Program-made: the position numbers and the translations under genes | The notes under the pieces: generated by a model | Database searches by the model: none | Told to the model about the DNA's origin: nothing | The model's input: only the letters and a program-made list of their open reading frames with translations | Shown: piece after piece, positions 8,370-64,000 of the stretch | How positions within the stretch are numbered: the first letter of the stretch is position 1 | Layout: every line of letters begins with the position of its first letter | Source of the DNA: a virus | Direction: 5' to 3' (one strand) | Virus record (IMG/VR): IMGVR_UViG_3300044638_008494 | Coordinates: 43,023 to 107,022 of that record | DNA: 64,000 bases

Positions 8370-11300
8370 TTATGCAGTCTGACCATTTTTAGTTTGTAAT
8401 CCAGCAATTTGCCTATTAACAGCATCAATTGCCGATGCAAGTTCTGCTCTTAACTGCTCTTGAACTTCCGATATTTTTGCTCCAACCTCAGCAATTGCCT
8501 CTTCAGACATTGATACGTCTATTTTAAAATCAGTACTAATATCAACAGGAAAACTAATATCTTGATTTAAAGTCATTTCTTTTCCACCATCTTCTACTGG
8601 CTGCTGAGATACCTCTCTCTGTGGTGACTCTTGAACTTGCTTAGTTTGTTCTTCAACTATTCCACTATTTTTATTAACAGCCTCACGACTACCATCTAAT
8701 GACTTTTTCAATTCCCTTATTTCTTCTTTTCCTTGCTCGATATTTTTAGGAGGGGCCATCGGGGCTTGAGGCTCAACTCCGATTGGCGGTTTTGATTCTG
8801 GGTTAAAATTTGGATCATAATACCCTAATCCCCCATCTGGCTGTGGAAACATTTTCGGAGGAGGAAGCGTTGGTTTAGGAAATTGAGGAAAAGCTGGGCT
8901 TAACAAAGGAGACTGAGGTGTATATGGTCGAGTTAGTGGCCCACCAATTGGCTGCAATGGAGATTGGATTTGTGGATCCGCAAATTGACCAACCAAAGGA
9001 TTAACTCCTCGATTTGTAAATGGAGACGCAGTAGGTGGAACATATGGTGAAACTGCGGGGTTATTATAAGGAAAAGGCTTTGGAGCCTGAAGCGGCATAC
9101 CCACGCTACCAGCTCCACCCTCTCCGAAATTAGGATCATAAAATCCTTGACTTCCATCAGGCTGAGTAAATGTTTGCGGCGGAGGAAGCGTTGGTTTAGG
9201 AAATTGAGGAAAATTAGGTCTTGGCGTCAATACTTCTCGCATATTTTCCGCTGACCCACCCAACATAACAGATCCTTCTAGCGCACTTACTATCTTATCT
9301 CCATTTAAATCTATAGCACCTATCATTTTTATAGCAAATGGATTAAGAGAATTTTCTAAAACAGACTTTATAATCGGCATAACGTCAGTCGCCATTGTTC
9401 CATCTATACCCTTGTTTAACATACCATCTCTGGAAGCATTTGGGGCTTGATATGGCATTTGCGACAATAATGATGTTACATCATAAGTGTTTCCAGCCTT
9501 TAACTCATCTCTTAAATACTGTATTACTGATATCATTTTATCATCTGATATTTTTTGTCCAGCCAGTAATGCGTCAATTGAAGATTTTAATTGTTGCTGA
9601 AAATCATCGACATTTTTAATTTCAGAATTTGCATTCTGGCTCTTTTGTACGGCGAGCTGATTTACGGACCGACCAGTATCGGTCGCCTCCACTTTTAATT
9701 CGTTTTTCAAATATTTAGAAAAATTTTCTTTTAAACTATCCGCAAACTCTTTTCCATACTTATTCATAGCATCAACTGCCAATTTATTATTTGGATCTGC
9801 CCTCCATTGGGTTAACTGCTCTTTTGTCATTGATTGAGACCATTGGCCCGACATTCGACCTTCTTCATTAAACATTTGATGTGTTTGATATTTATCTCCC
9901 CAACTTAACAAATCAGCACCAGGATCATCTGGTCCGTAGTTGTATTTCCTACGAACTACATTTTGATAATTTTTTTCTTCAATTTCTTTTATTATTTCTT
10001 GAAATGATTTTCCTAATGGGCCACTTGATGCTCCTGATATGTTTGTATTCGGAAGTTTATTTAAAATTTGTTTTAGTATAGAAATATTTTGAGCTACAGC
10101 TTGGTCTTGCTGCGCTTGAGATGCTTCCATTGCTTTAGCGGCCGCTGGGCTTATAATTGTAAAATTTCCGCCACTAGAGCCGCCAACGCCACTAACACCA
10201 CCAACGCCGCCAGCACTACCAGCACCACTAACACTGCCAGTAGTAGCTGCTCCCCGCATTGCTGCTTTTATTGCACTTGCGGCTGCTGTGCTTGTTATTG
10301 GGGGATTTGTTGTGGCGCTTCCTCTAGCATTAGACTGCATACTAAATGCACCGCCAGAAGTTGATGGGCATAATGCATTAATAGCTGTTTGCGCACAATT
10401 TGCCAAATTTAGTAATTTTTCCGCAGCATTATCTGCTTCTTTTTGTAATCCAGTAAAGGCTTGTTGTGAAAATTTATCCATATTTATTCCCACATATCCA
10501 ATAGATTTAACCAGATCTTCAGCTGCTTGATTGAATGGGTTAGCAAATTTTTGCCCAGGCTTCATACCGCCAAACTGCTGATTAACCATATCAACCACAT
10601 TTGCTCGACCCAATCCCTTTAAATTACCCAAACCAATAGCATCAAGGTATTCATCGGATTGATCTTGCAACATTGCTGTTAATCTTGATCTTTCTCCTCT
10701 TTGGTAATTTTCTGGAATTCCAAGAGCTTCCATAGCTTCTAATCTTCTGATTGACTGTTCGCGCTCGAACTTGTCCATTTCTCTTTTATATTTTAATGGC
10801 CCAATTTCGCCAGCTTGGTATGCCCTACGAAGCTCAGTTCCCTCCATTTGTGTTGGGTCAAATCCTGATAATCCAGAAACCCCACCAGCATATCCTTGCA
10901 TTTTTTGCATGCGATCATTAAATCTACCAACTGCAATATCGAATGCCTGTTGAACTTTTTGTGCAGCATTGTTAAAATCTATATTTTGTAGCGCCTGTTT
11001 TAAATTAAAATTTGCATCTTCAAGGCTTTTCTCATATGCGTCCTGCAGCCCTTTAGGCAATTTTGATAAATCAATTTTTTGTATATCTTCTATAGTTACA
11101 GCTTTTGCAATTTGTTCGGATACATTTTGCAAATCTACAACCTCTCCACGGTTAGCAGATGTTGTTAAATCTGCATTTTTTATATTATCTTGCAATTGCG
11201 GAACAAATGATCCCTTTAATGTATCAGCCGCTTCTTTACTTGCTTCTATAAAATCAATATAACTTTGCTGATCAATTCTTGCTGCGCCAATTGCCGCTTC

Positions 11301-57041: not shown

Positions 57042-57069
57042 TTGCTTTCTGGCTGTTTTGTGTTACCTT
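57042..57069 (+). promoter_or_regulatory. Sigma70-like promoter, leaderless type
   Basis: TTGCTT, a 16-bp spacer and TACCTT preceded by TGT, with an A-tract just upstream. The -10 ends 6 nt before ATG 57076, so transcription should start at the ATG. Confidence 0.75.
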
Positions 57070-62267: not shown

Positions 62268-62345
62268 GTAAGTCGTTAGCAATCAAGCACTTATGCTACC
62301 GGGCCGGGCCGCCGGGCGTAAGTCGTTCAAAATCAATAACTTATG
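62268..62345 (+). repeat. Composite intergenic repeat, copy 6
   Basis: Left arm 62268-62295, core 62299-62317, right arm 62318-62345. It lies between an operon end and the promoter of the RNA candidate. There is no TTCAAGAAGTGTGCCAA element. Confidence 0.88.
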
Positions 62346-62428: not shown

Positions 62429-62456
62429 TTGCGTTTTCCATGATGTGTGGTATACT
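62429..62456 (+). promoter_or_regulatory. Sigma70-like promoter with extended -10, drives RNA candidate
   Basis: TTGCGT, 16-bp spacer and TGG-TATACT. The predicted start is 62463, the A of ATG ATT TAA. No substantial gene begins there. Confidence 0.84.
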
Positions 62457-62462
62457 GCTTAC

Positions 62463-62663
62463 ATGATTTAAAAACAAAAGACATAATCCAGCCCAAAGAG
62501 AACCTTGGGTGTGCAAGCTGGATGTCTCACTTTCACCCTACTTTTTCTTTGAAATTTTTGATAGGACAAGAGGTTCTCCATCGAGAAGGGTTGATCGCCG
62601 GAAAAAAGGTGGAGACGTAAGCGTCGGATCGTAATGACAAGGCCTACTCCTATCAATTTTTTT
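62463..62663 (+). ncRNA. Structured small RNA candidate, about 200 nt
   Basis: Seen directly: the promoter just upstream; a 5' hairpin with ATCCAGC (62486-62492) pairing with GCTGGAT (62517-62523) and CCAA/TTGG inside it; a closing stem TTGATAGGA (62558-62566) with TCCTATCAA (62648-62656), followed by seven T. Inside that stem are AGG/CCT, TTCTC/GAGAA and GACG/CGTC. GAGAACCT in the first loop (62498-62505) is the exact complement of AGGTTCTC (62571-62578), so a pseudoknot or a switch is possible. The only AUG-led frame is two codons long. Known RNA families were not recognised. It could be a free sRNA or a leader controlling the zinc-ribbon gene, but that gene has its own promoter. Confidence 0.7.
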
Positions 62664-62664
62664 C

Positions 62665-62693
62665 TTTACTTTTTTTTCTGATTCTGTTACTTT
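62665..62693 (+). promoter_or_regulatory. Sigma70-like promoter, leaderless type
   Basis: TTTACT, 17-bp spacer and TGT-TACTTT. The -10 ends 6 nt before ATG 62700. It begins right after the RNA terminator T run. Confidence 0.7.
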
Positions 62694-62699
62694 AGCTTT

Positions 62700-62894
62700 A
62701 TGACAAAAGAAACCACTAAATGCCCCAAGTGCGGGGGGAAAGCCACGCAAACCTACGAGCCACCCTATCAGGAATACGCTGGAGCCAGCGTGCAGGGCGG
62801 CTACTACTTCGTGGAGTGCGCTTGCGGCCACGAAGGCTTCGAGAAGGCCAGTCTCGACGACTACAACTGGCAAGAGAATACAAGGGGCTGGTAA
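62700..62894 (+). CDS. Small zinc-ribbon protein, 64 aa
   Basis: Two metal-binding half-sites are visible: CPKCGG near residue 8 and ECACGHEGFE near residue 40, giving a C-x2-C and C-x-C-x-H-like pattern. The layout recalls small Lar-type restriction-alleviation proteins, in which a CxFCGG motif is followed by a second Cys pair, but the second site differs, so this is only a possible relation. Its stop codon forms part of repeat copy 7. A short promoter directly upstream drives it. Confidence 0.68.
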   Translation: MTKETTKCPKCGGKATQTYEPPYQEYAGASVQGGYYFVECACGHEGFEKASLDDYNWQENTRGW

Positions 62895-62995
62895 CCCCTT
62901 CATTCTCAAGGACTTGCGTTACCGGGCCGGGCCGCCGGGCGTAAGTCGTTGAATATCAGCAACTTATAGATTATCCCGTTCAAAAAGTGTGCCAA
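62891..62995 (+). repeat. Composite intergenic repeat, copy 7
   Basis: The left arm 62891-62918 includes the stop codon of the preceding gene. Core 62922-62940, right arm 62941-62968. A TTCAAAAAGTGTGCCAA element is at 62979-62995. Confidence 0.9.
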
Positions 62996-63269: not shown

Positions 63270-63512
63270 ATGAAAATCACCAAGACTGACCTCTACGACA
63301 CCCTCATCCAAGCTCGCGTAGCTTTGTCAAAAGACATCCGCGAAACCTTGCGCGGTCGCCGTCACTCTTTCTCTCCGAACCTCTTGCGGGAATCTGTCCG
63401 CGAAAAAATCGCTGCCTATCGGTTGCTCTCCAACCTCTCGGAAATCAACGCGGAAACCTACACGCACAGCAAGCGTGACCTCGCTCGCGTAAAAAAAGCT
63501 CTTGCCAAGTAA
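63270..63512 (+). CDS. Small basic helical protein, 80 aa
   Basis: ATG 63270 was chosen because the promoter spacing fits; an open extension to 63153 lies within the preceding gene. The protein is helical and basic throughout (DLYDTLIQARVALSKDIRET, LRESVREKIAAYRLLSNL), compatible with a small nucleic-acid-binding or inhibitor protein. No family was recognised. The following promoter -35 lies inside its last codons. Confidence 0.7.
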   Translation: MKITKTDLYDTLIQARVALSKDIRETLRGRRHSFSPNLLRESVREKIAAYRLLSNLSEINAETYTHSKRDLARVKKALAK

Positions 63513-63530
63513 CGCAATCTCTGACAAAAT
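63502..63530 (+). promoter_or_regulatory. Sigma70-like promoter overlapping gene end (tentative)
   Basis: TTGCCA inside the end of the previous gene, 17-bp spacer and CAAAAT. The -10 ends 7 nt before ATG 63538, the only case with a 7-nt distance. Confidence 0.5.
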
Positions 63531-63537
63531 CACCACC

Positions 63538-64000
63538 ATGACACTACTAAGCACCAACAACACCAAAATCAAAAAAGGCGAAAAGCTCGGCTGGCGCACT
63601 TACGGCCTTTCACTCTCACCCGCTGGCAAAAGTGGCAAACAATTCTGTCCGCATCGCTCGGCTGGCTGTGAGTTTGCTTGTCTCGACACTTCGGGCATGG
63701 GCATCTTTTCAAACGTGCAAGACGCACGCCTTGCAAAGTCGCGTTTCTTCATCGACAACCGCAACGAGTTTCTTTCTCAGTTGCATAAAGAATTGCACAA
63801 TGCAGAAAAGTGGAGCGCAAAAAATAATATGCCTGTCGCCGTTCGTCCGAACGTGCTTTCTGATCTGCCTTGGCATAAGCTGATCGACATGGCGCGCTTT
63901 CCGTCAATTCAGTTTTACGATTACACGCCGAACCTTCAACGCATGATGCAGTTTCTAAACGGCGAGTTGCCTAAAAATTATCATCTGACCTTCTCGCGCA
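63538..64000 (+). CDS. GP88-like phage protein, N-terminal 154 aa (runs off window)
   Basis: The open frame starts with ATG at 63538 and is still open at the window end. Residues about 20-55 contain RTYGLSLSPAGKSGKQFCPH followed by SAGCEFACLDTSGMG, matching the phage gene-product-88 family as I remember it (a conserved SPAGKSG and Cys-rich block). Later blocks AVRPNVLSDLPWHKLI and FPSIQFYDYTPNLQRM are also family-like. The Cys residues suggest a metal or iron-sulfur site. The family's function is not known to me, and the C-terminus is outside the window. Confidence 0.72.
   Translation, partial: MTLLSTNNTKIKKGEKLGWRTYGLSLSPAGKSGKQFCPHRSAGCEFACLDTSGMGIFSNVQDARLAKSRFFIDNRNEFLSQLHKELHNAEKWSAKNNMPVAVRPNVLSDLPWHKLIDMARFPSIQFYDYTPNLQRMMQFLNGELPKNYHLTFSR

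Follow-up and report, generated by a model that had tools for sequence, protein, structure and literature searches.

Bacteriophage T4 makes two small stable RNAs, C and D, which lie in its tRNA region and whose function is obscure. As small phage RNAs in a tRNA region they are comparable to the RNA described here, but no sequence relation was seen and there was no significant match in 50,697 phage records. GOLLD and ROOL, phage RNAs found near tRNAs, assemble into complexes made of RNA alone; in GOLLD the 3' region is conserved and the 5' region variable (PMC12286853). Phage theta ribozymes, which are HDV-like, adjoin tRNAs (PMC10879173).

The present RNA lies at 62463 to about 62663 of the window, the whole 64,000-nt stretch of viral DNA that was analysed; coordinates are those of the window, and labels of the form L0xx denote loci on other viral contigs. 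Like GOLLD and ROOL, which are often near tRNA genes (PMC12286853), it is a phage-encoded non-coding RNA of obscure function. GOLLD and ROOL measure about 660 to >800 nt, however, against a core of ~95 nt in a unit of ~200 nt here, and neither covariance model matches. By genomic setting the RNA most resembles GOLLD and ROOL, but it is a member of neither. With theta ribozymes it shares small size, structure and a place beside tRNAs, the last in two carriers only; most carriers have no adjoining tRNA, and the HDV-like models of Rfam gave no match at E up to 10. The closed P1 stem, covarying arms and invariant loops recall a riboswitch aptamer such as the M-box, but here no downstream gene class is conserved (each lineage has different genes), the promoter is autonomous, and the M-box match, the best of a local Rfam search of the window at E up to 10 that returned chance matches only, is insignificant (E = 7.4). 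At the gathering cut-off the Rfam 15 covariance models gave 0 matches in the window, and among the relatives they matched only tRNAs. ARAGORN and Rfam do not identify the RNA as a tRNA or tmRNA. The family is absent from the current RNA-family library (Rfam 15), and the term GGGTTGATCGCC appears in none of the papers searched. A preliminary description, made by a model from the sequence, had likewise recognised no known family.

Relatives of the RNA

Seven relatives were identified. L009 and L012 were found by BLASTN over loci fetched via the neighbouring gene at 63502, and L043, L044, L046 and L062 were found in a viral collection by patterns from the shared core. A covariance model of relatives, which the preliminary description had named as a check, was built from six sequences (R1), and compensatory changes appeared in both the core and the 5' domain. 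Six of the relatives score 85-115 bits against R1, among them L062, which lies outside the model (85 bits). The seventh, L016, is a divergent copy that R1 detected with 23.2 bits (E = 0.0044 over 486 kb). The low score notwithstanding, we regard it as a true orthologue because its position equals that of L044: in both, the RNA is flanked by the same leader on one side and the same tRNA-Thr on the other, both conserved. The core helices of L016 are rewritten with compensation.

Five of the eight family members come from one phage group with related terminase. When 26 whole virus records were searched with R1, each carrier had a single copy and most near relatives had none, even records whose terminase is 98% identical. 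At the sensitivity used, no true copies were found in ~85,000 prokaryote genomes, 50,697 phage records and 72,556 plasmids. BLASTN searches of phages and plasmids with the locus as query gave chance matches only. R1 had zero matches in ~1,185 genomes of three phyla, a shallow search that scored only about 10 candidates per genome and is weak evidence of absence. Ten matches from a pattern scan of genome contigs were all unrelated judging by their surrounding sequence. A half-motif scan yielded L057/L059/L060 and L058/L061, which have only a 19-nt stretch in common and were excluded as members; L045, L063 and L073 are chance matches.

The conserved core

The features of the locus are listed in the table. 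Compensatory substitutions demonstrate, at the level of predicted pairing, a structured RNA family, new to Rfam, in which the core is conserved and the 5' domain exchangeable.

Features of the RNA locus and its surroundings in the window
Feature	Position	Strand	Remarks
Left copy of 62-nt repeat	62283..62344	.	bounds RNA and small-gene cassette; 87% identical to right copy
Leaderless-family promoter of the phage	62429..62462 (boxes 62429-62456)	+	TTGCGT-16-TATACT; predicted transcription start about 62463
Vestigial leaderless frame	62463..62471	+	ATG-ATT-TAA (two codons)
Variable 5' domain	62479..62538	+	stem S1 and pseudoknot stem S2; compared with L012
Stem S1	62479-62482 with 62524-62527; 62486-62492 with 62517-62523	+	
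Pseudoknot stem S2	62507-62511 with 62534-62538	+	
Conserved 3' core (model R1)	62556..62660	+	~95 nt, shared with seven other viral contigs
P1, 5' strand	62558..62566, pairs with 62648-62656	+	TTGATAGGA/TCCTATCAA
Inner P1	62571..62574, pairs with 62642-62645	+	outer pair varies, then conserved G-C, G-C, U-G
P2	62575..62582, pairs with 62608-62615	+	main covarying helix; double changes in 7/8 pairs
Conserved P2 loop	62583..62607	+	GAGAAGGGUUGAUCGCCGGAAAAAA; holds small hairpin GGU-UGAUC-GCC at 62589-62599
P3 mini-hairpin	62616..62623	+	CG-UAAG-CG
P4 hairpin	62629..62637	+	UCG-UAA-UGA
T run (T7)	62657..62663	+	possible terminator, directly 3' of P1
Next gene, 64-aa cysteine-rich protein	62700..62894	+	in cassette
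Right copy of 62-nt repeat	62906..62967	.	

Two alignments were scored with a model of 20 pairs. A1 is a free alignment of six sequences (without L062 and L016); A3 is a model-based alignment of all eight, fitted to the structure and hence biased towards it, which was used because MAFFT misplaced P4 of L062. In A1, 99.2% of the 120 cells are paired and seven pairs show double changes; the covariation score is 0.433 against 0.177 +/- 0.034 for shuffled alignments, and 0/500 shuffles reach it. The corresponding values for A3, with that bias, are 98.1% of cells paired, double changes in 11/20 pairs and a score of 0.532 against 0.214 +/- 0.031 (again 0/500), and shifting the partners by 1-3 columns lowers the score to 0.05-0.16. 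The structural result from A1 thus agrees with that from A3 even without L062 and L016, and compensatory changes exceed the controls, as expected of a structured non-coding RNA. G-U pairs on one strand are preserved in 7-8 of the 8 sequences, which argues for an RNA rather than a DNA element.

Most of the covariation signal comes from P2. The predicted helices P1, P2 and P4 are backed by compensatory change, and P3 weakly so. In L012, L044, L046 and L016, P1 has another sequence in an equivalent role, and the outermost pair of inner P1 is A-U, G-U, U-A or C-G among the relatives. The P4 register at A1 columns 89-97 was adopted in place of the RNAalifold version because a pair there covaries (U-A/C-G) and L062 lengthens the hairpin, its counterpart being a 5-bp hairpin (CCGAG-GTTA-CTCGG). 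P3 and the small P2-loop hairpin hardly vary and are therefore only proposed. The P2 loop is nearly invariant (AAGGGUUGAUCGCCGGAAAA), and its segment GGGUUGAUCGCC is retained even in the divergent L016. At its foot, G/A at A1 column 43 covaries, judged by eye, with A/G (or C) at column 66, as if the two were in non-Watson-Crick contact. In all, more than 40 core residues are invariant in 7/8 sequences. This invariance, together with a fold kept despite rewritten helices, indicates that the RNA is under strong selection.

The core folds better than shuffled sequences (z = -2.25); the whole interval 62463-62670 does not (z = -0.37). The minimum free energy structure of the window sequence differs from the consensus fold, and P1 and P2 of the model are the minimum free energy fold of L046 (z = -5.1) and L016 (z = -2.9). 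A ten-C run lies immediately 3' of P1 in L046 (2500-2525) and L062 (5290-5305, minus strand), the two carriers linked to PRTRC genes.

The 5' domain

A 5' domain like that of the window is present in only one relative, L012, which is the sole basis of the comparison. All 16/16 pairs of two crossing stems are kept between the two, six of them through compensatory double changes. Twelve of the 17 substitutions in L012 fall within these six pairs, and the other 5 are unpaired. Only 23 of 200,000 random substitution sets of equal size preserved all pairs. The crossing stems S1 and S2 are predicted to form an H-type pseudoknot, which the short last loop would make sterically tight, so that the foot of S1 may open. 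In L009 the whole 5' domain is missing and the promoter is followed directly by the core, which indicates that the 3' part is a unit in its own right. The 5' domain is thus exchangeable: a pseudoknot in the window, another leader in the tRNA-linked copies, and absent from L009.

The fold originally proposed for the locus holds in part. The RNA is structured, the bulged 5' hairpin is present, and so is the long closing stem followed by a T run. The 3' half folds differently, however, and the supported pseudoknot lies inside the 5' domain. The pseudoknot or two-state switch first suggested would instead pair the 62498-62505 loop with 62571-62578 and open P2. This 8-nt complement is exact, but at least one such match occurs in 35% of dinucleotide shuffles of the 201 nt. 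Six contiguous pairs, two of them G-U, could form in L012 too, but with one mismatch and zero compensatory changes. The 5' partner is absent from L009, and the 3' partner is already engaged in P2 and inner P1, the best-supported helices with which the proposal clashes; its residues (GGUUC) are conserved in carriers without a window-type 5' domain, where they are part of P1/P2. The helix may exist as a transient state.

Promoter, terminator and coding potential

The promoter belongs to a family of the phage itself, as the preliminary description had noted. Its motif (TTGC...TGTGSTAYTCT...ACATG) occurs in seven copies between 57 and 63 kb, at 57042, 57836, 58792, 60213, 60987, 62429 and 63045, and each of the six other copies opens a leaderless ORF (50-175 aa), but the ATG at the RNA starts a frame of just two codons. 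L012 has an equivalent promoter followed by ATG-AGA-TAA, and an equivalent promoter sequence stands upstream of the L009 RNA. A generic sigma-70 scan of the window promoter region was not above chance, so the evidence for this promoter is its family resemblance. Upstream of L043, L044/L016, L046 and L062 the same type of scan found promoters indistinguishable from chance. No frame common to the relatives was seen and there is no credible protein gene over the RNA: among the relatives, stop positions vary frame by frame. The family promoter, together with covariation in eight sequences and the lack of an Rfam match, upholds the earlier proposal of a structured RNA of no known family with its own promoter; it is the comparative evidence, which went beyond what that proposal could draw on, that leads us to judge the RNA real.

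The proposed terminator fares less uniformly. P1 followed by a T-rich run in the window, L009 and L012 makes a terminator plausible there, but the stem does not resemble the short hairpin of a classic terminator, and there is no T run in L043 or L044.

Genomic context

The RNA and the 64-aa gene form a cassette bounded by the two repeats; L003/L004 have a single repeat copy at the corresponding site, and RNA and gene are absent. The gene downstream of the RNA differs between the window, L009 and L012. In L044 and L016 a tRNA-Thr begins a few nt downstream of P1, and in L046 and L062 PRTRC-like genes follow, where the E2-like and ThiF-like calls are weak profile matches below curated cut-offs and the Ub-like call was made by eye only. 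The contigs of L043, L046 and L062, which may be fragments, lack the terminase and portal of the window; that of L062 has a weak terminase match of its own. No protein common to all carriers was found within 20-kb regions, and the few clusters with members in more than one lineage consist of ORFs that overlap the RNA, plus one small protein. The RNA thus behaves as an independent cassette, optional in phages without a common neighbouring gene.

Several further features were observed. Between 57000 and 63100 of the window, small leaderless genes that share one promoter type form an array with palindromic repeats (TAAGTCSTTGATATTCAACGACTTA) between them, and the region looks like a zone of cassette exchange. 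The Gp37/Gp68-like protein encoded at 63502-64000 is distantly related to proteins of Pelagibacter and other phages. The terminase of the window phage is no more than ~20-24% identical to those of the deposited phages listed, which makes the phage look like a member of a deep, uncultured group. Directly 3' of the core in L043, ~0.8 kb (9630-10420) without convincing genes and without an Rfam match may hold another large structured RNA. A tRNA at 8425-8540 of L016 (Rfam, 44 bits; missed by ARAGORN) contains an insertion of ~40 nt that seems to lie in the anticodon region.

Possible functions

The best explanation, which we consider probable, is that 62463 to about 62663 is an autonomously transcribed gene for a structured non-coding RNA outside the Rfam families, acting in trans on a host factor. 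Transcription would start at about 62463 from the leaderless-gene promoter and stop after the P1 stem and T run. Autonomy is suggested by the family promoter with its aborted frame and by the fact that the window, L009 and L012 each have another gene downstream. The RNA would act in trans, presumably on a host target, since no cis target or partner is shared. A factor that the hosts of several phage lineages have in common may bind to a surface made up of the invariant P2 loop and the P3/P4 junction. Because of the tRNA linkage in two carriers, the target is most likely to lie in the translation, tRNA or RNA-processing machinery, though its identity would be a guess. The 5' domain may contribute a lineage-specific function.

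The invariant loop and junction residues around variable stems would also suit a catalytic RNA, a ribozyme (self-cleaving or processing) that would trim transcripts of the phage, releasing itself for instance from the tRNA transcript in L044/L016, where the tRNA-Thr starts so close to P1; theta ribozymes offer a precedent (PMC10879173). We consider this unlikely: not one Rfam ribozyme matched even at E = 10, most carriers have no tRNA beside the RNA, and no conserved candidate substrate lies outside the closed P1 stem. It is rather less probable that the RNA is a scaffold acting as an oligomer through loop-loop dimers of the GAUC palindrome in the P2 loop. This GAUC (loop of 62589-62599) is identical in 8/8 sequences, and GOLLD and ROOL, as tRNA-adjacent RNAs in RNA-only complexes, the former with the same conserved 3' and variable 5' arrangement, set an example (PMC12286853), but a four-base palindrome is weak evidence and the RNA is far smaller, with no match in sequence or structure.

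A cis-acting leader, in which P1 and the T run form a conditional terminator for the next gene as in a riboswitch or attenuator, would fit the aptamer-like architecture, P1 followed by T7, the place of the RNA between leader and tRNA-Thr in L044/L016 and its position upstream of the PRTRC-like genes in L046/L062. We regard it as distinctly improbable, and favour a trans-acting RNA over it, because the neighbouring genes differ and no partner protein is common to the carriers: the downstream genes are wholly different (the 64-aa protein, other small ORFs, a tRNA, PRTRC-like genes), the sequence of outer P1 varies, and no conserved alternative anti-P1 pairing was seen. Where the RNA directly precedes the tRNA-Thr, in L044 and L016, a cis role on that tRNA is possible. 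As a compact RNA in an accessory cassette beside small genes, it might instead work together with a phage protein dedicated to it, as a guide or antitoxin RNA (ToxI-like, RNA anti-CRISPR-like or guide-like). This has very little probability, given that the carriers have no protein family in common within 20-kb regions, the RNA has no tandem repeats and the core has no guide-like variable segment. The two-state switch, at chance level and clashing with P2, is the least likely of all.

A bolder reading, which we offer tentatively, is that the RNA represents a new class of phage RNA with its own activity, a small conserved core with an exchangeable 5' domain passed among unrelated phages, that may take over, inhibit or replace a conserved host machine, or may itself be a catalyst or an assembly. 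Only a few families of non-coding RNA have been described in phages, and for almost none of them is the function known. The present family spans phages that share neither the terminase of the window nor a common set of neighbouring genes, and an RNA of ~95 nt with a defined consensus is directly amenable to synthesis, probing and use as bait.
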